From Streptomonospora salina (lineage in GTDB: Bacteria; Actinomycetota; Actinomycetes; Streptosporangiales; Streptosporangiaceae), in NCBI RefSeq assembly GCF_014204715.1, contig NZ_JACHLY010000001.1, forward strand, positions 1,953,001-2,017,000: a stretch of 64,000 bases of DNA, read 5' to 3'. Below, in pieces: positions 42,752 to 53,897 of this stretch. The translations under genes were made by a program, and so were the position numbers. Every line of letters starts with the position of its first letter. The stretch's first letter is position 1. The notes under the pieces are model-generated. The model saw only the letters and a program-made list of their open reading frames with translations, was not told the origin of the DNA and made no database searches.

Positions 42752-44074
42752 TCAGCTCATGGAGATGAACCGGTCGAGGACCCGGACGCCGAACTGGAGT
42801 CCGTCGACGGGAACCCGCTCGTCCACGCCGTGGAACATGCCCGAGAAATTCAGGTCCGCCGGCAGCCGCAGCGGCGCGAACCCGTAGTTGCGGATACCCA
42901 GCGACTGGAAGCTCTTGGCGTCGGTACCGCCCGACAGGCAATAGGGGACGGCCTTGGCCTCCGGGTCCTCGGCCAGCAGCGACTCCGACATCGCGGTGGC
43001 GATTCCGCCCCCGAACCCGGTCTCCACGGAGGGCAGGTGGTGGATGAACTCGCGGTCGACCCCGGGTCCCAGCAGGCGGTCGATCTCGGCGAAGTACTCG
43101 TCCTCCAGCCCCGGCAGGAAACGCCCGTCCACGTCGGCCGTAGCCGTTCCGGGAATGACGTTGGCCTTGTAACCGGCGTCGAGCACGGTGGGGTTGACGG
43201 TGTGGCGCAGCGTGGCGCCGATCATGCTGGACACCGAGCCCAGCCGCGCGACGGTGGACTCCACGTCGTTCTCGTCGAACTCGATGCCGAACTCGGCGCA
43301 GACCTCCTCCATGAAGGTGCGCACGGTCGTGGTCAGCTGCACGGGGAACCGGTGCCGACCCAGGCGCGCGACGGCGTCGGCGAGCTCGGTCACGGCGTTG
43401 TCGTCGTTGGTCATCGACCCGTGCCCGGCGGTGCCGCGCGCCTTGAGGCGCATCCAGGCGATGCCCTTCTCGGCGGTCTCGACCAGATACAGCCGCCGGT
43501 TCTCGGCCACGGTGACACTGAATCCGCCGACCTCGCTGATCGCCTCGCTGCAATCGGCGAAGAGCCCGGGGTGCTGGTCGACCAGCCAACGGGCGCCCCA
43601 GGTGCCGCCCGCCTCCTCGTCGGCGAGGAACGCCAGCACGATGTCGCGCGGCGGTCGCCGCCCTTCGCGCATGCGCCGGCGCAGCACGGCCAGGATCATG
43701 GCGTCCATGTCCTTCATGTCGATCGCGCCGCGCCCCCAGACGCACCCGTCGGCGATCTCGCCTCCGAAGGGGTCGTGCGTCCAGTCGGCGGCGTCGGCGG
43801 GCACGACGTCCAGGTGCCCGTGCAGCAGCAGCGGCGCCCGTCCGGGATCCTCCCCGGGGACGCGCGCCACGACGCTGCTGCGCCCCGGGTGCGACTCGTA
43901 GATCGTCGGTTCGATCCCGACCTCGTCCAGCTTGGCGGCGACGTACTCCGCCGCCGCCCGCTCCCCGGGACCCGAGTGGTCGCCGTAGTTGGACGTATCG
44001 ATGGCGATGAGCTCCCGGCACAGATCCACGACCTCGCGCTCGGCCCCGCTCACCCCGTCACCAGCCTCCACCAT
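42752..44074 (-). CDS. M20-family metallopeptidase
   Basis: 440 aa cytosolic di-zinc peptidase/deacylase. Metal-binding motifs are 'LLLHGHLDVVPAD' (His and Asp ligands), WGRGAIDMKD, and DEEAGG (catalytic Glu). The lid domain starts near RGTAGHGS, and the C-terminal GVDERVPV supplies the last region. Related to ArgE, DapE and carboxypeptidase G2. The substrate is unknown; it may be a dipeptide or N-acyl amino acid. The ATG has AGGAGGC about 10 bases upstream. It ends the chromosomal part next to tRNA-Leu, and the recombinase frame overlaps its first codons. Confidence 0.9.
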   Translation of the reverse strand: MVEAGDGVSGAEREVVDLCRELIAIDTSNYGDHSGPGERAAAEYVAAKLDEVGIEPTIYESHPGRSSVVARVPGEDPGRAPLLLHGHLDVVPADAADWTHDPFGGEIADGCVWGRGAIDMKDMDAMILAVLRRRMREGRRPPRDIVLAFLADEEAGGTWGARWLVDQHPGLFADCSEAISEVGGFSVTVAENRRLYLVETAEKGIAWMRLKARGTAGHGSMTNDDNAVTELADAVARLGRHRFPVQLTTTVRTFMEEVCAEFGIEFDENDVESTVARLGSVSSMIGATLRHTVNPTVLDAGYKANVIPGTATADVDGRFLPGLEDEYFAEIDRLLGPGVDREFIHHLPSVETGFGGGIATAMSESLLAEDPEAKAVPYCLSGGTDAKSFQSLGIRNYGFAPLRLPADLNFSGMFHGVDERVPVDGLQFGVRVLDRFISMS

Positions 44075-45990
44075 GACGCTGACCGCCTCCTCTTCACCGC
44101 AGACTTCGGTCCCGACCCTTCCATGCTCCCCCCGAAGCCCGAAACGATGTCCGATCGGCCCCAGACCTTTGCTATGGTTAATCCAGCCAGCGCACGGCGT
44201 GCGGGGCGATACGTCCGGGTGGCGGAATAGGTAGACGCGCTAGCTTGAGGTGCTAGTGCCCGCATAGGGCATGGGGGTTCAAGTCCCCCCTCGGACACTT
44301 TCGAATCTCCTATGAGATCGGGGCTGAGGACCACCTCAGCCTGAACGGTCTCCTCACCGGGGTTGTAGGTCGCCCTTAAGCCGAGCTGCTTGTACAGCTC
44401 GGCTTTGTCATCGGAGTCGGCCCCCTCCAGGACCCGGACGATGTCGCCCAATTCATGCACCATCTGGGTGATGGTCGCCTCGTCCAAGCGATCGCTGGGG
44501 GCTTGCAGGCGCTTCAGCTTGGCCTGGGCGGCTTGGCGCTGGTTCTCGGCCTCAGTGATCCACTCGATCACGGCTGAGGCCGCCGCGCCCCCGTCCAGGG
44601 CATCGCGGTACTGGCGAAGCCGGCGCTCGCACTCCTCGATCTCCATACGGATCCGCTGCTCCTGGGCTGCGTATTCGTCGTGTCCTTGATTGGCCGCCAT
44701 GGCGGCGATGGTCTCGTCGATGCGGTCGGGGGCGAACTCCCGCGCCAGCCAGGCGTCGAGCTGCGGCACCACGAGGTCTTCGCGCAGGTAGACGTTGCGC
44801 GGGTGCTCGATCTTGTTGGCCAGCGCGTACTCCTGGGGGAACCGGCACCGGTAATAAGGAGCGTTGTTGGTCCACTGGCCCTGCATCCGCCGGTCGCAGA
44901 CCCCGCAAAACAGCAGAGTGCGCAGCACGTAGGGGTAGCGGCGCCGGTGCGGCTTGTGGGAGGTCGGCCCGGTCCCGCGCGCGGCCAGGATCTGCTGGAC
45001 CTGGTCGAAGGCTTCCTGAGGGATCAAGGACTCATGCATGATCCGCTCCGACCACACCCACTCGTCCTTGTCGTTCCAGCGCTGTTTGGTGGTGTGGCCG
45101 AGCTGCACGTCGTGGACGTCGATGAGTTCTTCGTCCTTGCGCTGCTTGGCCCAGACCTGGCGGCCGGTGTAGCGCGGGTTGGTCAGGATCACCCGGATGG
45201 CGCCCTTGGCCCAGGCGACGCCGGAGCGGTGCCGGTTGCGCTTGCGGTCGTAGGCCGAGGGCGAGGGGATGCCCTCACGGGTCAAGTGCTCGGCGAGCTG
45301 CCCGATGCTCCACCCATTGAGGAAGTGAGCGAAGATGAGCCGCACCACCCACTCGGTCTGCGGGTCGGGCACCAGGCGGTGCATCCGCTTGCCGTCGGAG
45401 GCCTTGGCGGGGTTGGGGTGCGGGCCGACGTCCTCCAGCATGTATCCGTACGGCGGGCGCCCGCCCAGCCAGCGCCCCTCCATCTGAGCTTGGGAGGTCA
45501 TGGCGGCGCGCACCCGGGTCTTGATGCGGGTGCGCTCTCCCTTGGAGATCCCGCCGTACATCGACATGATCAGTTCGTGGGCCTCGTTCGCGGGGTCGAT
45601 CGCCCCGCCGATCTCGGGCACCCAGAGCTGGACGCTGTAGTGCTCGAACATAGGGAACGTCATCGCGAACTGGTTGCCGTAGAACGCGCGCTGCGGCTCG
45701 CCGACTACCACCGCATCGAATCCGCGGTTGGGGTTGGCCAGCAGGTCCAGCAGCCGACTGGCCTGCGGGCGCCGCTGCGGCGGCACCGAGCGGGAGCGGT
45801 CGATGTCGAAGAACTCCTCGACGATGTGCCCACCGTGGTTCTGGATCAGGGCGGTAGCGCGCGAGCGCTGCCACTGCCGTGAGGATTCCGGGTCCTGCTG
45901 GTCCTCGGTGGAGACTCGTCCGAGGAAAGCAAAGTCTGTTGGTTCGGAGCCGGGCTTTCGGATCGGGTTGCCGACCGGCCTGTGGGTCAT
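44050..45990 (-). CDS. Large serine recombinase (integrase)
   Basis: Catalyses integration and excision of the element. 646 codons. Resolvase domain with catalytic Ser27 in FLGRVSTEDQQDPESS and 'GEPQRAFYGNQF'; recombinase domain with 'EGRWLGGRPPYGYML' and NPRYTGRQVWAKQR; zinc ribbon with CGVC and YRCRF; coiled-coil near 430-540. Element-derived sequence ends about residue 564; the rest is read from the antisense strand of the whole tRNA-Leu (28 residues) and chromosomal DNA up to a stop at 44050 inside the M20 gene. The N-terminal ATG overlaps the upstream small gene (ATGA). Confidence 0.93.
   Translation of the reverse strand: MTHRPVGNPIRKPGSEPTDFAFLGRVSTEDQQDPESSRQWQRSRATALIQNHGGHIVEEFFDIDRSRSVPPQRRPQASRLLDLLANPNRGFDAVVVGEPQRAFYGNQFAMTFPMFEHYSVQLWVPEIGGAIDPANEAHELIMSMYGGISKGERTRIKTRVRAAMTSQAQMEGRWLGGRPPYGYMLEDVGPHPNPAKASDGKRMHRLVPDPQTEWVVRLIFAHFLNGWSIGQLAEHLTREGIPSPSAYDRKRNRHRSGVAWAKGAIRVILTNPRYTGRQVWAKQRKDEELIDVHDVQLGHTTKQRWNDKDEWVWSERIMHESLIPQEAFDQVQQILAARGTGPTSHKPHRRRYPYVLRTLLFCGVCDRRMQGQWTNNAPYYRCRFPQEYALANKIEHPRNVYLREDLVVPQLDAWLAREFAPDRIDETIAAMAANQGHDEYAAQEQRIRMEIEECERRLRQYRDALDGGAAASAVIEWITEAENQRQAAQAKLKRLQAPSDRLDEATITQMVHELGDIVRVLEGADSDDKAELYKQLGLRATYNPGEETVQAEVVLSPDLIGDSKVSEGGLEPPCPMRALAPQASASTYSATRTYRPARRALAGLTIAKVWGRSDIVSGFGGSMEGSGPKSAVKRRRSASWWRLVTG
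44213..44297 (+). tRNA. tRNA-Leu (anticodon GAG)
   Basis: 85 bases with acceptor GTCCGGG/CTCGGAC and discriminator A, D-arm with GGAATAGGTAGAC, anticodon stem CTAGC/GCTAG with loop TTGAGGT (GAG), the long variable arm expected of class II tRNA-Leu, and T-arm GGGGG TTCAAGT CCCCC. CCA is not encoded. It is intact, and the mobile element begins at its 3' side. Confidence 0.95.
44262..44297 (+). other. Presumed attachment (attL) site in the 3' part of tRNA-Leu
   Basis: The recombinase gene ends on top of the tRNA, the usual arrangement where attP lies at the 3' end of the integrase gene. The tRNA 3' half is the probable shared core. The exact crossover cannot be seen because the other junction is beyond the window. 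Confidence 0.4.
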
Positions 45991-46497: not shown

Positions 46498-46935
46498 TCA
46501 TGGCGCCTCCCATCGGATACGGGCCGAACCTTGAGCGCGGGGCCGGCGGGGCGGGTGCCAGTCCTCGCGCGGTGGCAATGCCGCCGCCGGCGTCCAGTTG
46601 GCGGCGCGCAGGGAGGTGCCGGGCTCCTCGGCGCGGGTGTAGGTGAGCAGGCGCTCATAGGCCAGGGCCCGGGCTGCGCGCCGGCAGGCGGCATAGAGCA
46701 TCGAACAGGCGTTGGGCGTGCCGTCGGTGGCCAGGCGGGTGACCTCCAGGGTGCGGCCGTCGTCGAGCCCGCGCGCCACGGGGCGCCCGACGACGGCGAC
46801 CGCCACCAGCGCCCCGGTTTCGTCGGCGGCGCCGATGCTGAACTTGTGGCCGCGCGGGGGCGGCAGGTGGCGGTGGAAGACCTCGATGAAGGCCTTGGCT
46901 TCGGCCAGACTCACCGGAATCAGGTGCAGGCTCAC
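46498..46935 (-). CDS. XF1762-family protein (acetyltransferase-like fold)
   Basis: 145 aa: 'LHLIPVSLAEAKAFIEVFHR' followed by HLPPPRGHKFSIGA, then LEVTRLATDGTPNACSMLYA and 'RALAYERLLTYT' and GTSLRAANW. This is the XF1762 family found in phages and mobile elements; the strand-helix pattern resembles GNAT acetyltransferases. The last 20 residues are basic. The GTG start overlaps the stop of the PAPS-reductase-like gene, with GGAGGTGA in that gene as its ribosome binding site. Exact function unknown. Confidence 0.8.
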   Translation of the reverse strand: MSLHLIPVSLAEAKAFIEVFHRHLPPPRGHKFSIGAADETGALVAVAVVGRPVARGLDDGRTLEVTRLATDGTPNACSMLYAACRRAARALAYERLLTYTRAEEPGTSLRAANWTPAAALPPREDWHPPRRPRAQGSARIRWEAP

Positions 46936-47822
46936 CGGTCACCTCCGTCGTTGTCGGCGTCCGCCCCGTCCGGCTCCTCGCTGCCGCGGCAACTCCAGGG
47001 CGAGCACCCGTCGGGCTCGGGCCCGGTGTCGATGCCCAGGTCGACCTGTTCCAAGGGGATGCGGTCGCGATGCAGGTAGGCCGTGCCATGAAGCGGCATG
47101 CCGCGCGCGGTGGCGCCCGGAGGGCCGTGCCGGATGGCGGCATCGAAGGCAACGGCGTCCTCGAAGGAGGCCGGATCGGTGGCTCGCATCTCGGCCCAGG
47201 ACTCGTTGGAGCGGAACGGGCACCCGATGCAGGCGGATTTGGGAGTGTCGCCGAGGCCGTGGAGGGTGAGGAACGCGGCGCAGTCGCGGCGCGTCCAGCC
47301 GATGTCCAGCAGCGGGAAGACGTTGCGCAGATAGCCGACGTCGGCGTCCTTGGCGCGGTGGACCTCGTCGACGCTGATGCCGATGGCCTGCTCGGCATAG
47401 ATCCCCGTGGGGACACGTGCCGGATGGGGATAGCCCAGCAGGCGGCGGGCCTCGCGCTTGAGCGGGCGGACCTTGTACTCGCTGGTGCATTGGCGCCGGC
47501 CCATCCGGTGCTCGCCGTGGGGGCCGTGGATGAACAGCGGCATGCCGGCGAACCGGTGCCGGGGGTCGAGGGCGTCGTCGCGGATGTTGCCGGCGGCAAC
47601 GCGTAGCAGGGGGATCCCGGCATCGGCGGCAACGGCTTCGATCCGCTGCAGGTGCTGGTAGACGGCCGGGGGTTCCCATCCGGTGTCGGCGAACAGGGCG
47701 TAGTCGAAGGTCGGGATCGCGCCGCGGGCGGCGAGCAGCAGCAGGGTGCTGGACTGCACGCCCGCCCCCAGCGACAGCAGCTTCAGCGCGGGTGCGGGCC
47801 GGTGCGGATCGCGTAGGGCCAT
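46932..47822 (-). CDS. PAPS-reductase-like / adenine-nucleotide alpha-hydrolase family protein
   Basis: 296 aa of the PP-loop superfamily. P-loop LGAGVQSSTLLLL (about 18-30), 'FADTGWEPP', RRQCTSEYKVRPLKR (Cys112), Cys181 and SACIGCPFRSNES (Cys198, Cys201). This Cys pattern is shared by phage and plasmid PAPS-reductase-like proteins, which are not assimilatory CysH enzymes. It may activate a substrate with ATP for sulfur or amide chemistry; the substrate is unknown. Translationally coupled to the XF1762 gene. One of the two shared 44-bp promoter-like elements lies 31-74 bases upstream. Confidence 0.82.
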   Translation of the reverse strand: MALRDPHRPAPALKLLSLGAGVQSSTLLLLAARGAIPTFDYALFADTGWEPPAVYQHLQRIEAVAADAGIPLLRVAAGNIRDDALDPRHRFAGMPLFIHGPHGEHRMGRRQCTSEYKVRPLKREARRLLGYPHPARVPTGIYAEQAIGISVDEVHRAKDADVGYLRNVFPLLDIGWTRRDCAAFLTLHGLGDTPKSACIGCPFRSNESWAEMRATDPASFEDAVAFDAAIRHGPPGATARGMPLHGTAYLHRDRIPLEQVDLGIDTGPEPDGCSPWSCRGSEEPDGADADNDGGDR

Positions 47823-47852
47823 GGGTTGGTGTCGGCGGCGGCCAACGAACGT

Positions 47853-47896
47853 CCCACTGGTATATGCAGAAATCCGGGCCGCTCAGCGTCCACCCA
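47853..47896 (-). promoter_or_regulatory. Outward-facing 44-bp element, copy 1 (toward PAPS-reductase operon)
   Basis: Reads on the minus strand as a conserved GGTGGACGCTGA block and, downstream, TTCTGCATATAC. Promoter-like hexamers are CTGAGC and TATACC, 16 bases apart. The reverse complement matches copy 2 at 48820-48863 in 36 of 44 positions. Confidence 0.65.
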
Positions 47897-47917
47897 TGCC
47901 CGGATCGGTTCGCGGGT

Positions 47918-47929
47918 GTGCGTACGCAC
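47918..47929. promoter_or_regulatory. 12-bp perfect palindrome in the divergent promoter region
   Basis: GTGCGTACGCAC, in the 289-base region between the PAPS-reductase-like gene and the sigma-like gene. A plausible operator; may control the sigma-like gene. Confidence 0.35.
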
Positions 47930-48111
47930 GGCGTTCGCACCCCGCATGTGGCGTAGTTCCGTCCGGCTGCGCTGGGGCGCCCGCACATCGAGGGATTCGT
48001 TCGCCGGGTCTTCGCCGATTCTTCGCACACGCGACTGCGAATATCGTGCTCATTTTTGGCGAAGCCGGGTGTGTATCACTGGTGACTCCCGACAACGCGA
48101 GGGAGTTCATC

Positions 48112-48843
48112 ATGAGTTCCACGCCGTTTTCCGTGCTGCGCCGCTCCTTTGACACACTCGCCGCCACTCATGGCGGCCCGCTGCTGGATGCCGCGGGAAT
48201 TACCGGAGCACCCCGCACTTCTCTTTCCGCAGCGGATTTGGCCGCGTGGCTGCCCGAAGCCACGGCCGAGGCGACCGATGAGGCCTGGCGGCGCCTGATC
48301 GTCCGGGCACGCACCGGTGAGGCCGCCTGGACGGTGATCGCGGCCGGGTTGGCGCTGCCCGGTCTGTATGCCGCGCGCAACCGGATGTGCCGCGGCCTGG
48401 GCGCCGACGTGGCCGATTTGGAAGCCGAGATGCTCAGCGCCCTGATCGCCCAGATGCGCGCGCTGGATCCGGAGCCGCGGGCGGTGTGTGGGCGGCTGGT
48501 CTATGCGGTGCGCAAGGCCGGGCAGCGCTACCGCTACCTGCGCGACCAACAGCGCCGTCGCGAGCGCCCCCACCAGGACGCCCGCCGGGAGGCGGCCCTG
48601 CCTCGTGCGCGCGGGCCGGTGACCGTGCTGGCCGAGGCCGTGGCCGGCGGCGTGCTCACCTCGCAAGAGGCGGAGTTGGTCGCGCGCACGCACCTGGAAG
48701 GCCACCGGCTCACAGCGGTCGCCCGGGAGCTGGGGTTGTCGTATACGACCGCGCGGCGCCGCCGCAAACACGCCTGCGCGCGCCTGGCCGAAACCATCCA
48801 GGACGGAAAAGCGGCCGCGTCGGTGGACGCTGACGGGCTCTGA
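48112..48843 (+). CDS. Sigma-factor-like helix-turn-helix protein of the element
   Basis: 243 aa. Residues about 65-130 are helical with 'GLGADVADLEAEMLSALIAQ', resembling a degenerate sigma region 2. The C-terminus carries region-4-like HTH: 'GGVLTSQEAELVARTHLEGH' then RLTAVARELGLSYTTARRRRKHACARL. ATG at 48112 with GAGGGAG upstream. It sits immediately ahead of the conjugation operon and is bracketed by the two 44-bp elements, the second overlapping its last codons. It is a likely regulator of transfer; whether it is a true sigma factor is inference. Confidence 0.8.
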   Translation: MSSTPFSVLRRSFDTLAATHGGPLLDAAGITGAPRTSLSAADLAAWLPEATAEATDEAWRRLIVRARTGEAAWTVIAAGLALPGLYAARNRMCRGLGADVADLEAEMLSALIAQMRALDPEPRAVCGRLVYAVRKAGQRYRYLRDQQRRRERPHQDARREAALPRARGPVTVLAEAVAGGVLTSQEAELVARTHLEGHRLTAVARELGLSYTTARRRRKHACARLAETIQDGKAAASVDADGL

Positions 48844-48863
48844 ATTCTGCATATACGAGTGCG
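48820..48863 (+). promoter_or_regulatory. Outward-facing 44-bp element, copy 2 (toward conjugation operon)
   Basis: Inverted copy of 47853-47896. It contains GGTGGACGCTGA and TTCTGCATATAC, with CTGACG and TATACG 16 bases apart. It begins inside the last codons of the sigma-like gene and lies about 145 bases before the pilin gene. Confidence 0.65.
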
Positions 48864-48880
48864 GGCGATTTATCCGCCCG
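48862..48880 (+). terminator. Short hairpin between sigma-like gene and pilin gene
   Basis: 6-bp stem CGGGCG/CGCCCG with a 7-base AT-rich loop, about 20 bases after the stop. Could be a weak terminator or a leader structure of the conjugation transcript. Confidence 0.3.
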
Positions 48881-49005
48881 GACGTAAGGGGCGGGGACGC
48901 GGCCAACGAACGCTCCCCCGGTTTCCACGTCGCGCGAGAAAGGAGAGTCGGCGCTTCCCCGCCCCTTCTCCCCTGCTTTTCGTTCGTTCTTTTGAGGTGA
49001 CGACT

Positions 49006-49359
49006 ATGCCGCTCCCGCGCGCACGCCCGGCGCGCGTCGCTGTCGTCGGCGCGCTGCTGTGCGTCCTGTTCGTGCTCGCCCCGGGTTCTGCCGCTCTGGC
49101 CCAGGGCGCCGAGCAGCCCGGAGTCTCGGATCTGGGTGAGGTGATCACCAACATCCGCAACTGGCTCGTGGGCCTGCTGGTGGCGCTGGCCACGCTGCTG
49201 CTGACCATCGGCGGGCTGCGCTACCTGCTGGCCGGCGGGGATCCCGGCGAGGTCAGCAAGGCCAAGGACACGCTGAAGTACTCCGCGCTGGGCTATGGGG
49301 TCGCGATCCTCGCGCCGATCCTGGTGGAGATCCTGCGCGGCTTCGTCGGGCTGGGCTGA
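49006..49359 (+). CDS. VirB2/TrbC-like pilin
   Basis: 117 aa. Signal peptide about 1-33 (ending ALAQG) and two hydrophobic helices ('WLVGLLVALATLLLTIGGLR' and 'YGVAILAPILVEILRGFVG') separated by LLAGGDPGEVSKAKDTLKY, the standard arrangement of major T4SS pilins. It would form the conjugation surface structure. ATG with GAGGTGA upstream. First gene of the transfer operon, 2 bases before the next. Confidence 0.85.
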   Translation: MPLPRARPARVAVVGALLCVLFVLAPGSAALAQGAEQPGVSDLGEVITNIRNWLVGLLVALATLLLTIGGLRYLLAGGDPGEVSKAKDTLKYSALGYGVAILAPILVEILRGFVGLG

Positions 49360-51152: not shown

Positions 51153-52088
51153 ATGCGTGTGCGCATGCCCGCCGACATCGAGCGGGAAGACAAGCTCCTG
51201 GCCAACCTCTCAGCCCGCCAACTGCTGATCATCGGGATCCCCGGCCTGGGCCTGTGGGCCCTGTGGAGCGCCCTGGGCGATGCGGTGCCGTTGCCGGTGC
51301 TGGGCGCCCTGGCCGTCCCGCTCATGGGAGCGGCGGTGGCCGCCGCCCTCATCCAGCGCGACGGGCTGAGCCTGGACCGCCTCCTCGTGGCGGCGGTGCG
51401 GTTCCACCGCGCTCCCAAGCGCCGCGCCACCACCGCCCCGTCCTCAGCGGAAGTGCCGTCATGGATCAGCGCCGATCCCGGCCCGCTCCCGGCACCGCTG
51501 GAGCTGCCCGTCTCAGCGATCGGTGACGACGGGGTGATCGACCTGGGCGAGCACGGCGCCGCCCTCGTCCTCGACTGCTCGACCGTCAACGTCGGGCTGC
51601 GCACCGAGGAGGAACGCGCCGCCCTCGTGTCCGGGTTCGCCTCCTACCTCAACTCCCTGGCGGCTCCGGTCCAGATCCTGGTGCGCGCCGAATCGGTACG
51701 TCTGGACCCGCTGATTGCCGCCCTCGATGCCGCGGCACCGACGTTGCCGCACCCGGCACTGGAGCAGGCCGCCCGCGCCCACGCCGACTTCCTCAACGAC
51801 CTGGCCGCCTCCCACACGCTGCTGTATCGCCGCGTGCTGCTGGTGGTGCGCGAGCCTGCCGCCCACGGGCGGCAGGCAGCGGCAACGCTCAAGCGCCGGG
51901 CCGACGATGCCGCCCGGGCGCTGGCTGGTGCCGGCAGCACCGCCACCGTCCTCGACGGACCGCGGGCCGTCGCCGTGCTCGCCGCGGCCGCCGACCCCAC
52001 CCGTACCGGCGGCGTCGCCCCGGAAGATCTCGCCGCCCCCGATGCCGTGATCACCGGCCCGGAAACCGAACAGCAGGAGGAGGGCTGA
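51153..52088 (+). CDS. PrgI-family (VirB3-like) conjugation protein
   Basis: 311 aa. 'RMPADIEREDKLLANLSARQ' at the start is the PrgI signature, followed by two transmembrane helices (about 24-68) of VirB3 type. The C-terminal soluble domain (about 110-300) resembles the N-terminal domain of VirB4-type ATPases, as in other actinobacterial PrgI proteins. It directly precedes VirB4, its usual partner. Confidence 0.85.
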   Translation: MRVRMPADIEREDKLLANLSARQLLIIGIPGLGLWALWSALGDAVPLPVLGALAVPLMGAAVAAALIQRDGLSLDRLLVAAVRFHRAPKRRATTAPSSAEVPSWISADPGPLPAPLELPVSAIGDDGVIDLGEHGAALVLDCSTVNVGLRTEEERAALVSGFASYLNSLAAPVQILVRAESVRLDPLIAALDAAAPTLPHPALEQAARAHADFLNDLAASHTLLYRRVLLVVREPAAHGRQAAATLKRRADDAARALAGAGSTATVLDGPRAVAVLAAAADPTRTGGVAPEDLAAPDAVITGPETEQQEEG

Positions 52089-52091
52089 ACC

Positions 52092-53897
52092 ATGCGTCGA
52101 CTATTGCGAACGCGGCGGGCGCACCGGACGGCGACCGGGTCGGGCCCTGTTAATGCTGAGGTCGAGATCGGCCAGCGCCGCATGCGGCTGGGCGAGGGCG
52201 CCGCGGCCTCCTTCGTCGTCACGGGCTATCCGGCCGAGGTCGGCCACGCCTGGCTGGAACCGCTGCTGACCTACCCCGGCCGCCTCGACGTGAGCCTGCA
52301 CATCGAACCGGTCCCGCCGAAGGTGGCCGCCGACCGGCTGCGCCGCCAGATGGCCCGGCTGGAATCGTCCAACCAGACCGGGGCCGAACAGGGCAAGCTC
52401 GAGGACTTCGAATCCGAGGTCGCCGCCGACGACGCACGCGACATGGCCGCCTCCCTGGCCCGCGGGGACGGCAAGCTGTTTCGCGTCGGGCTGTCGGTCA
52501 CGGTCCACGCCGCATCAGACGAGGAGCTGGACGAGGAGGTCGGCCACGTCCAGTCGCTGGCCTCCTCCATGCTGATCGACGCCCGCCCCGCCTCCTACCG
52601 CCAACTGCAGGGCTGGGTCTCGGCCCTGCCGACGGGCGTGGATCTGCTGGGCCAGCGCCGCAGCATGGACACCCATGCGCTCTCGGCGGCCTACCCGTTC
52701 GCCTCCCCCGACGTGGCGGTCGAGACCTCGCCCACCGCCGTCCTCTACGGTCTCAACGCCGACTCCTCGGGGGTGGTGGTCTGGGACCGGTGGGCTCTGG
52801 ACACCTACAACACCGTCGTGTTGGCCCGCTCCGGCGCCGGCAAGTCCTACTTCTGCAAACTCGACCTGCTCCGGTCGATGTATGCGGGGATCACGGCCGC
52901 GGTCATCGATCCCGAAGACGAATACAGCCGGCTGACCGAGGCCGTGGGCGGAACCACGATCCGGCTGGGCGAGCCCGGGGTGCACCTCAACCCCCTGGAC
53001 CTCGCCCTCGATCAGGCCGCGAACCGCGACGCCCTGAGTCGGCGGGCGTTGTTCCTGCACACCCTGCTGGCGGTCATGCTCGGCGGTCCCCTGGGCCCGC
53101 GCCAGCGCGCCGCCCTGGACCAGGCGCTGATCGCCACCTACCGGGCCGCGGGCATCACCGCCGACGAGCGCACCTGGAACCGTCCCGCCCCGCTGCTGGC
53201 CGACCTGGTCGCGACCCTGGAGAACGAGGGCGACGAGCACGGCCAGGACCTCGCCGTCCAGCTCGCGCCCTACACCACGGGTTCCTACAGCGAGCTGTTT
53301 CGCGCCCCGACCACCCGGCGGCCTTCCGGCCATCTCGTGTCGTGGTCGCTGCGGGATCTGCCCGACGAGCTCAAGGCCACCGGGACCCTGTTGGCGCTGG
53401 ATGCGATCTGGCGCACCGTCGCCGATGCCGCCCCCGATCACCCCCGCATGGTGCTGGTGGATGAGGGCTGGCTGCTCATGTCCGAGCCCGAGGGCGCGAA
53501 GTTCCTGTTCCGCCTGGCCAAGGCCGCCCGCAAACGCTGGGTCGGGTTGACGGTAGCCACTCAGGACGCCGCCGACGTGCTCGGATCCGAGCTGGGCAAA
53601 GCCGTCGTCGCCAACTCCGCCACCCAGATCCTGATGCGCCAGGCGCCCCAGGCCATCGACCAGATGGCCGACTCCTTCGCGCTGTCCGACGGCGAGCGCC
53701 GGCACCTGCTCACCGCTTCACCTGGGGACGCGCTGCTGTGCAGCGGTCAGCGCCGGGTGGCCTTCCGCGTGGTCGCCAGCCAAGCCGAACACCAGCTCGT
53801 CACGACCAATCCGGCCGAGTTCGCCCATCCCGCCCGCTCCGACGAGGGCTCCACAGAACTGGACGTCGACACCGCCGAGGAGGACGACCTGCTATGA
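52092..53897 (+). CDS. VirB4-type conjugation ATPase
   Basis: 601 aa. N-terminal VirB4 domain with 'EVGHAWLEPLLTYPGRLDVS' and the CagE/TrbE-like region; Walker A ARSGAGKSYFC (about 245) and Walker B MVLVDEGWLLM (about 452); 'TVATQDAADVLGSELGKAVV' and NSATQILMRQ. Hexameric ATPase powering pilus assembly and transfer. Its stop overlaps the start of the coupling protein (ATGA). Confidence 0.93.
   Translation: MRRLLRTRRAHRTATGSGPVNAEVEIGQRRMRLGEGAAASFVVTGYPAEVGHAWLEPLLTYPGRLDVSLHIEPVPPKVAADRLRRQMARLESSNQTGAEQGKLEDFESEVAADDARDMAASLARGDGKLFRVGLSVTVHAASDEELDEEVGHVQSLASSMLIDARPASYRQLQGWVSALPTGVDLLGQRRSMDTHALSAAYPFASPDVAVETSPTAVLYGLNADSSGVVVWDRWALDTYNTVVLARSGAGKSYFCKLDLLRSMYAGITAAVIDPEDEYSRLTEAVGGTTIRLGEPGVHLNPLDLALDQAANRDALSRRALFLHTLLAVMLGGPLGPRQRAALDQALIATYRAAGITADERTWNRPAPLLADLVATLENEGDEHGQDLAVQLAPYTTGSYSELFRAPTTRRPSGHLVSWSLRDLPDELKATGTLLALDAIWRTVADAAPDHPRMVLVDEGWLLMSEPEGAKFLFRLAKAARKRWVGLTVATQDAADVLGSELGKAVVANSATQILMRQAPQAIDQMADSFALSDGERRHLLTASPGDALLCSGQRRVAFRVVASQAEHQLVTTNPAEFAHPARSDEGSTELDVDTAEEDDLL

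Follow-up and report, generated by a model that had tools for sequence, protein, structure and literature searches.

A gene for a predicted ECF-like sigma factor between two outward-facing promoter-like sites in a family of conjugative elements

The element and its inverted site pair

The window, which is the whole stretch of 64,000 nucleotides of the Streptomonospora salina genome analyzed here, carries a tRNA-adjacent conjugative element. It fulfills two criteria for an integrative and conjugative element, namely a recombinase gene at a tRNA gene and genes of type IV secretion. No repeat of the tRNA region that might mark the right attachment site was found in 40 kb beyond the window. The gene labels TrbL-like, VirD4-like, and RepRel were given by eye and are presumptive. 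The following features (positions in the window) are relevant here:

44050–45990, minus strand: large serine recombinase gene at the left end (PF07508, E 1.9e-21; PF00239, E 6.5e-12)
44213–44298, plus strand: tRNA-Leu gene, overlapped by the 3' part of the recombinase gene
46498–46935, minus strand: XF1762-family, Mom-like cargo gene (NF045478, E 4.8e-57; PHROG 1384, E 5e-33)
46932–47822, minus strand: PAPS-reductase-like cargo gene (PHROG 424, E 5.4e-41; SspD, E 2.5e-11; PF01507 below cut-off)
47853–47894, minus strand: promoter-like site c1, directed toward the PAPS-reductase/XF1762 operon, predicted start near 47857; 36/44 match to c2
47919–47928, no strand assigned: palindrome TGCGTACGCA, a possible operator, between c1 and the sigma gene
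48112–48843, plus strand: gene for a predicted ECF-like sigma factor of 243 amino acids (region 2 at about residues 50–160, region 4 at about 181–225)
48822–48863, plus strand: promoter-like site c2, directed toward the transfer operon, overlapping the 3' end of the sigma gene, predicted start near 48859
49006–49359, plus strand: type IV secretion pilin gene, the first of the transfer operon (PF18895, E 6.4e-18)
51153–52088, plus strand: PrgI-family gene (PF12666, E 1.3e-15)
52092–53897, plus strand: gene for a VirB4-like transfer ATPase (NF045971, E 1.1e-86, below its cut-off)

Judged by family matches, the cargo looks like a DNA-modification operon. PHROG 1384 is annotated as 'Mom-like DNA modification protein', and the second cargo protein meets the criterion of a match to a Mom-like family; that adenine in DNA is modified is an inference. 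On the cargo side of related elements, a C5-cytosine methylase is found in three loci (L040, L041, and L083) and an N4/N6 methylase in two (L038 and L039).

The original prediction, made from the letters of this DNA alone, held that a 44-bp sequence recurs in inverted orientation on both sides of the sigma-like gene. This is reproduced: positions 47853–47896, read on the minus strand, and 48820–48863 on the plus strand are identical at 36 of 44 positions, whereas no 44-nt match exceeds 28 when both flanks are dinucleotide-shuffled 1000 times. The rest of the window matches either copy at no more than 26 of 44 positions anywhere, and base composition predicts about 0.0002 inverted pairs of this quality within 2 kb for the whole window. 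Hence, the inverted pair is confirmed as real. The second copy starts within the final codons of the sigma-like gene, as had been proposed. The blocks identical in both copies are GGTGGACGCTGA and TTCTGCATATAC. Comparison with relatives defines the conserved blocks as GGTGGACGC, which most relatives have as GGTGAGCGC, and TTCTGCATAT, after which comes a start region resembling GAGTGAG. CTGAGC, offered as one of the hexamers, is not the conserved core. Neither c1 nor c2 is directed into the sigma gene.

A third copy exists besides the bracketing pair. In the 5.6-Mb genome, the two-block pattern is found twice in the window and once at position 4962477 of contig C1, with no further occurrence at up to three mismatches. 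The third copy (source genome G000; read in L003 and L076) precedes a second PAPS-reductase/XF1762 cargo pair, in which the PAPS-reductase gene is shorter (251 codons vs. 296 in the window). The 19 kb read around this site revealed no sigma relative, and the sigma factor of the window might drive this cargo pair in trans.

Between c1 and the sigma start, a palindrome resembling TGCGTACGCA with at most one mismatch is present in 10 of 13 related elements, the window's included. By eye, a CTCCC/GGGAG hairpin could also form at 48086–48105 of the window, where it would mask the sigma gene's ribosome-binding site, and similar arms lie 5' of the sigma genes of several relatives. A search of Rfam with positions 47700–49100 returned a single match (E 0.58), under its gathering score.

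The sigma-like protein and its relatives

The protein encoded between the two sites had been described as sigma-region-4-like. Region 4 and the location of the gene between the copies are borne out, while fold models predict that region 2 is present as well. In Pfam, region 4 alone is detected (Sigma70_r4, residues 181–225, E 0.0021, 17.9 bits against a cut-off of 24.1), and the sigma70-ECF family TIGR02937 matches residues 94–227 at E 6.2e-6, with 25.9 bits also below its cut-off of 42.9. The same family matches 16 of 26 relatives at E ≤0.1. An AlphaFold2 model of the whole protein (13 sequences) has a pLDDT of 86.5. When this model is compared with the PDB by Foldseek, nearly all of the 50 matches listed have titles that identify them as sigma factors or as the sigma chain in a polymerase complex; E-values reach 0.0028 at best, with none below 0.001 among the matches listed. 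TM-scores of the whole model are low (about 0.2–0.3 by query), which we attribute to domain orientation. For region 4 of 3hug, the TMt is 0.70.

Residues 50–160 folded separately (12 sequences) give a pLDDT of 86.7, and in Foldseek, sigma factors fill the first 12 ranks of the PDB matches, with mixed hits further down. The best match is region 2 of sigma-E with −10 DNA (TM 0.62/0.71, rmsd 2.7, E 0.11). The models thus satisfy the expectation of a −10-binding region 2 fold, though the E-value of 0.11 is weak, and of a −35-binding region 4 fold, with a family score below cut-off. Although the models rest on 12–13 sequences only and the Foldseek E-values are weak, we interpret the protein as an ECF-like sigma factor of two domains that has an N-terminal extension; that it directs core RNA polymerase is inferred. 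The protein might instead be an ordinary DNA-binding regulator, whose region-4-like helix-turn-helix binds the −35-like block while a sigma factor of the host reads the −10 block. The weak detection of region 4 only by Pfam is compatible with such a regulator, and the function of the protein does rest on prediction, but residues 50–160 model as a sigma region 2.

Relatives of the sigma gene are present in 45 of 198 genomes at E ≤1e-8 and in 32 of 341 genomes of the family at E ≤1e-25 (source genome included in both counts), and this one genome has three. No relative was found in genome contigs (single-protein query) or in plasmid or viral contig collections. Forty stretches were read, 37 of which contain a sigma relative. 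A pilin gene follows downstream on the same strand in 33 of these 37 loci and was not found in L045, L056, L061, and L070. In L053, L054, and L065, the sigma reading frame continues in frame through the pilin gene (421–432 codons), a possible fusion. In another locus (L099, genome G237), a PAPS-like gene is flanked by two sigma-like genes at a distance of about 1.5 kb from each other.

One gene bracketed by inverted repeats could also represent a transposon or an invertible cassette that carries this gene, with the pair as its ends. The orientation of the sigma gene relative to the pilin gene is nevertheless constant in all 33 loci in which both were found, which fails the orientation criterion for such a cassette and led us to reject it. 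The sites moreover vary between elements while neighbors and spacing stay fixed. Finally, a 1.8-kb insertion splits the sigma gene from the pilin gene in L043/L081, and c2 remains beyond the insertion, adjoining the pilin gene. We thus give this explanation almost no credence.

The two sites across related elements

The original prediction proposed a search of related elements for the paired blocks, and this search bears it out: 13 distinct elements, the window's included, place the two outward sites identically on either side of the sigma gene (10 by leave-one-out and 3 held out). A broad alignment of 26 members was too diverse for scanning, and a closer alignment gave 13 loci. Further sites were placed by eye in L041, L042, L043, L049, and L083, and the pair of L067 came from a scan within the locus. 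In an unguided inverted comparison of the flanks of 30 loci, six exceed their own 60 shuffles (the window element, L009, L010, L015, and L016, plus the low-complexity L031), L011 ties with its best shuffle, and 23 of the 30 loci are not outstanding.

In the leave-one-out test, 409 upstream positions per element were scored with a model built only from the c2 sites of the other elements. c1 ranks first in 10 of 10 elements, the window's included, and its scores exceed all 500 shuffles in each of them. A model from 20 sites finds these two sites in each of ten loci (11–17 kb) and nothing else within 20 bits, having been trained on the same sites that it scored. As a control, none of 1,052,500 positions in other loci exceeds 18 bits. 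The set fetched later comprises 13 loci, i.e., four known loci fetched again (L094–L097), three new members of the clade, and six distant loci. In the new members, the two sites are the two best matches, with 24.7 and 37.8 bits in L098 (next 0.4), 28.6 and 22.5 bits in L099 (next 1.9), and 12.4 and 8.6 bits in L104 (next 0.3). In the six distant loci, nothing at the expected places scores above 0 bits.

The two sites of one element resemble each other more than they resemble sites of other elements. Among 12 elements, agreement in the −35 block is 82% within an element and 53% between elements (p 5e-5), and in the −10 block 69% and 40% (p 5e-5). It is lower in the spacer (44% vs. 34%, p 0.03) and in the start region (54% vs. 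42%, p 0.03), and flanks do not differ (29% vs. 29–30%, p >0.6). Exclusion of L049 and L067 gives a test of 10 elements, in which the −35 block agrees at 85% within vs. 69% between (p 5e-5) and the −10 block at 67% vs. 49% (p 0.001), with no significant difference in the spacer and flanks at 30% vs. 29%. Since sites were partly placed by eye before this comparison, the leave-one-out test and the elements fetched later serve as a check on that choice. Site variants are shared, for example, by the window element and L038 (TTCTGCATATA) and by L044 and L083 (TTCCTCTTGA), while L104 has GGCCGCAAAC with ATCGCAA.

Agreement within elements would also arise from recent duplication or gene conversion without any function. 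We consider this very improbable because the agreement is confined to the two blocks, with only a small difference in the spacer and none in the flanks, and because position and spacing recur in 13 diverged elements. The −10 block varying in step within elements likewise bears on the DNA-binding regulator, as a shared host sigma factor would not require such variation; together with the modeled region 2, this makes a regulator of that type unlikely. The matched change in both blocks is in line with the preferred reading of a sigma factor that would recognize its own pair of promoters.

Loci with missing or different sites delimit this pattern. Both sites are present in 13 of the 17 loci whose PAPS-like gene lies at most about 380 bp from the sigma gene. 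L080, L078, and L085, also among the 17, are close to L043: L080 has c1 (23.8 bits) and a weak c2 (9.5 bits) before the pilin gene, and L078 and L085 have c1 only (22.9 and 21.1 bits), with no c2 in the sequence examined. L049, with a PAPS-like gene at this distance, has no significant site. No pair was found in L054, L101, and L105, where the PAPS-like gene is 450–550 bp from the sigma gene, and in L056, where it is 1378 bp away, a 9.4-bit match about 107 bp before that gene remains below threshold. As a separate observation, the sigma relative of L085 lacks most of region 2 with c1 still in place, and VirB4 is the sole transfer gene, of those sought, found there within 8 kb.

Elements that keep the sigma gene without the pair had been named as a refutation. 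Such a case occurs in L084 (Nocardiopsis quinghaiensis), which retains the sigma gene and c2 (35.6 bits) and has no c1 (p 0.96), but the PAPS cargo gene is absent there too. We thus read c1 as belonging to the cargo. Of the 13 elements, 12 have c2 at the head of the pilin gene. The exception is L045, whose two sites score above 40 bits (40.0 and 42.3, 20-site model): the sequence examined beyond c2 showed no transfer gene, and ORFs that by eye resemble insertion sequences (two inverted copies) begin directly after the c2 leader.

Seven loci of another clade have a transfer-side site of a different kind, consisting of a TGTCGATTC-like block, 13–15 nt, and a GCGAGTTTT-like block, and none of the seven shows another copy that matches comparably. 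For clades without a PAPS gene, no comparable match that could be a second site was found in about 15 kb. A third kind of site is seen in L067, which has a distant sigma relative and comes from a genome of another family of the same class; its outward pair matches at 24 of 26 positions, with the upstream copy 870 bp before the sigma start.

Leader sequences, the proposed switch and known systems

The leaders of the two putative transcripts are also related to each other, through the following features:

47838–47861, no strand assigned: copy 1 of a 24-nt direct repeat, located where the cargo transcript is predicted to begin (83% to 48899–48922)
48886–48967, plus strand: predicted long stem-loop in the transfer-operon leader, with 94% complementary 16-nt arms, enclosing AAAGGAG at 48939–48945
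48899–48922, no strand assigned: copy 2 of the direct repeat, in the transfer-operon leader, with RNA complementary to the cargo leader

Element by element, complementarity is seen between a part of the transfer leader and the cargo transcript at its predicted 5' end. For the best 18-nt agreement, the mean over 13 elements is 13.7 within an element and 11.9 between elements (p 5e-5), and with a limited register 12.5 vs. 9.9 of 16 (p 5e-5). L039 and L045 have no match in register among the 13; the leader of L045 seems to be cut by the insertion. Leaders were taken from site position 37, and when 11 of them are folded as single sequences, each has a hairpin that starts within nucleotides 1–4. 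All nine longer leaders contain AAAGGAG or GAAGGAG, mostly inside the long stem-loop that follows; L042 folds differently. RNAalifold applied to the leader alignment gives a weak result (13 pairs, −6.87 kcal/mol), probably because the stems are misaligned, and hence we report single-sequence folds alone.

The repeat is direct in the DNA while the promoters are inverted, which we take to favor RNA pairing over an operator linked to the promoters. An operator role is not excluded, as L084 keeps a similar leader segment without cargo and the differences between leader matches are indecisive: 11 are wobble-compatible and 5 incompatible, plus 14 transversions (counted without L039 and L045, which were kept in the agreement comparisons), so that a role in RNA or DNA remains undecided. 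Roughly the first 20 nucleotides of the cargo mRNA might pair within the transfer-leader stem-loop beside AAAGGAG and open or close the leader, wiring the two transcripts by RNA; we put this forward tentatively, as a possibility with somewhat less than even prospects.

The original prediction saw a self-contained regulon in which the sigma-like protein recognizes a promoter that fires transfer and cargo genes together. A dedicated pair of sigma factor and promoter for the two operons is well supported by comparison, given the computed site pair in 13 elements, its position and conservation, the matched change of the sites, and the predicted two-domain fold. "Self-contained" is too strong since neither promoter points into the sigma gene. 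We thus consider it probable, in the absence of transcription or binding data, that a divergent, element-dedicated ECF-like sigma factor fires the transfer and DNA-modification operons via a private promoter.

Since the sigma gene is driven from neither c1 nor c2, the switch has to be started by a signal from outside, and the two sites provide no feedback on the sigma gene. Most likely, this signal would raise the level of the sigma factor, perhaps by acting at the palindrome resembling TGCGTACGCA. The sigma factor, bound to core RNA polymerase of the host, would then read GGTGGACGC, the spacer, and TTCTGCATAT, with transcription starting a few nucleotides further; both the binding of the protein to the sites and the start of transcription there are inferred. 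c2 would fire the operon for type IV secretion and transfer, and c1 would divergently fire the DNA-modification cargo operon at the same time. This joint firing may mark the DNA of the element against restriction around transfer, a protection that is likewise inferred.

The elements provide a natural series of sigma-promoter pairs, 13 on the motif kind of the window and other clades with other motifs. This series makes the evolution of sigma specificity testable, as well as the insulation of several such elements in one cell. A reason for cargo and transfer to share a switch may be that modification genes, when fired alongside the transfer machinery, shield the outgoing DNA from restriction, which is our inference.

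Several known systems share single aspects of this arrangement. Orf7 of Tn916 is sigma-like and belongs to a Firmicute element, and we know of no promoter pair bracketing it. It resembles the present case as a small regulator of a conjugative element that is said to raise the expression of xis and int (PMC7288454). SigN of the Bacillus subtilis plasmid pBS32 is also a sigma factor of a mobile element with a regulon largely on the same element, but it activates its own expression and is linked to over-replication of the plasmid and cell death (PMC6751061). The element in the window differs in that no site is directed into the sigma gene and that the targets are transfer and DNA-modification cargo operons. 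The same source calls sigma factors rare on plasmids (PMC6751061). TraR of Tn4371-family elements is comparable as a regulator at a fixed place that links cargo expression with transfer in conjugative elements. In contrast, it is a LysR-type regulator co-transcribed with the cargo and not a sigma factor, and the accessible part of the source describes no matched promoter pair (PMC11448139). Mom-type modification of phage Mu and others (PMC7824862) is related to the second cargo protein through its match to the Mom-like PHROG 1384. Unlike the phage Mu type, the Mom-like gene of the window resides in a conjugative element beside a PAPS-reductase-like gene, with a DNA methylase in relatives and an activity that is inferred.

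The same arrangement is not described in the open literature on conjugative elements with sigma factors, as judged from titles and the starts of abstracts of the matches listed, with most subscription papers not covered. Sigma factors on mobile elements are already known; the present case is a conjugative family that keeps a sigma-like gene between the two promoters it apparently controls.
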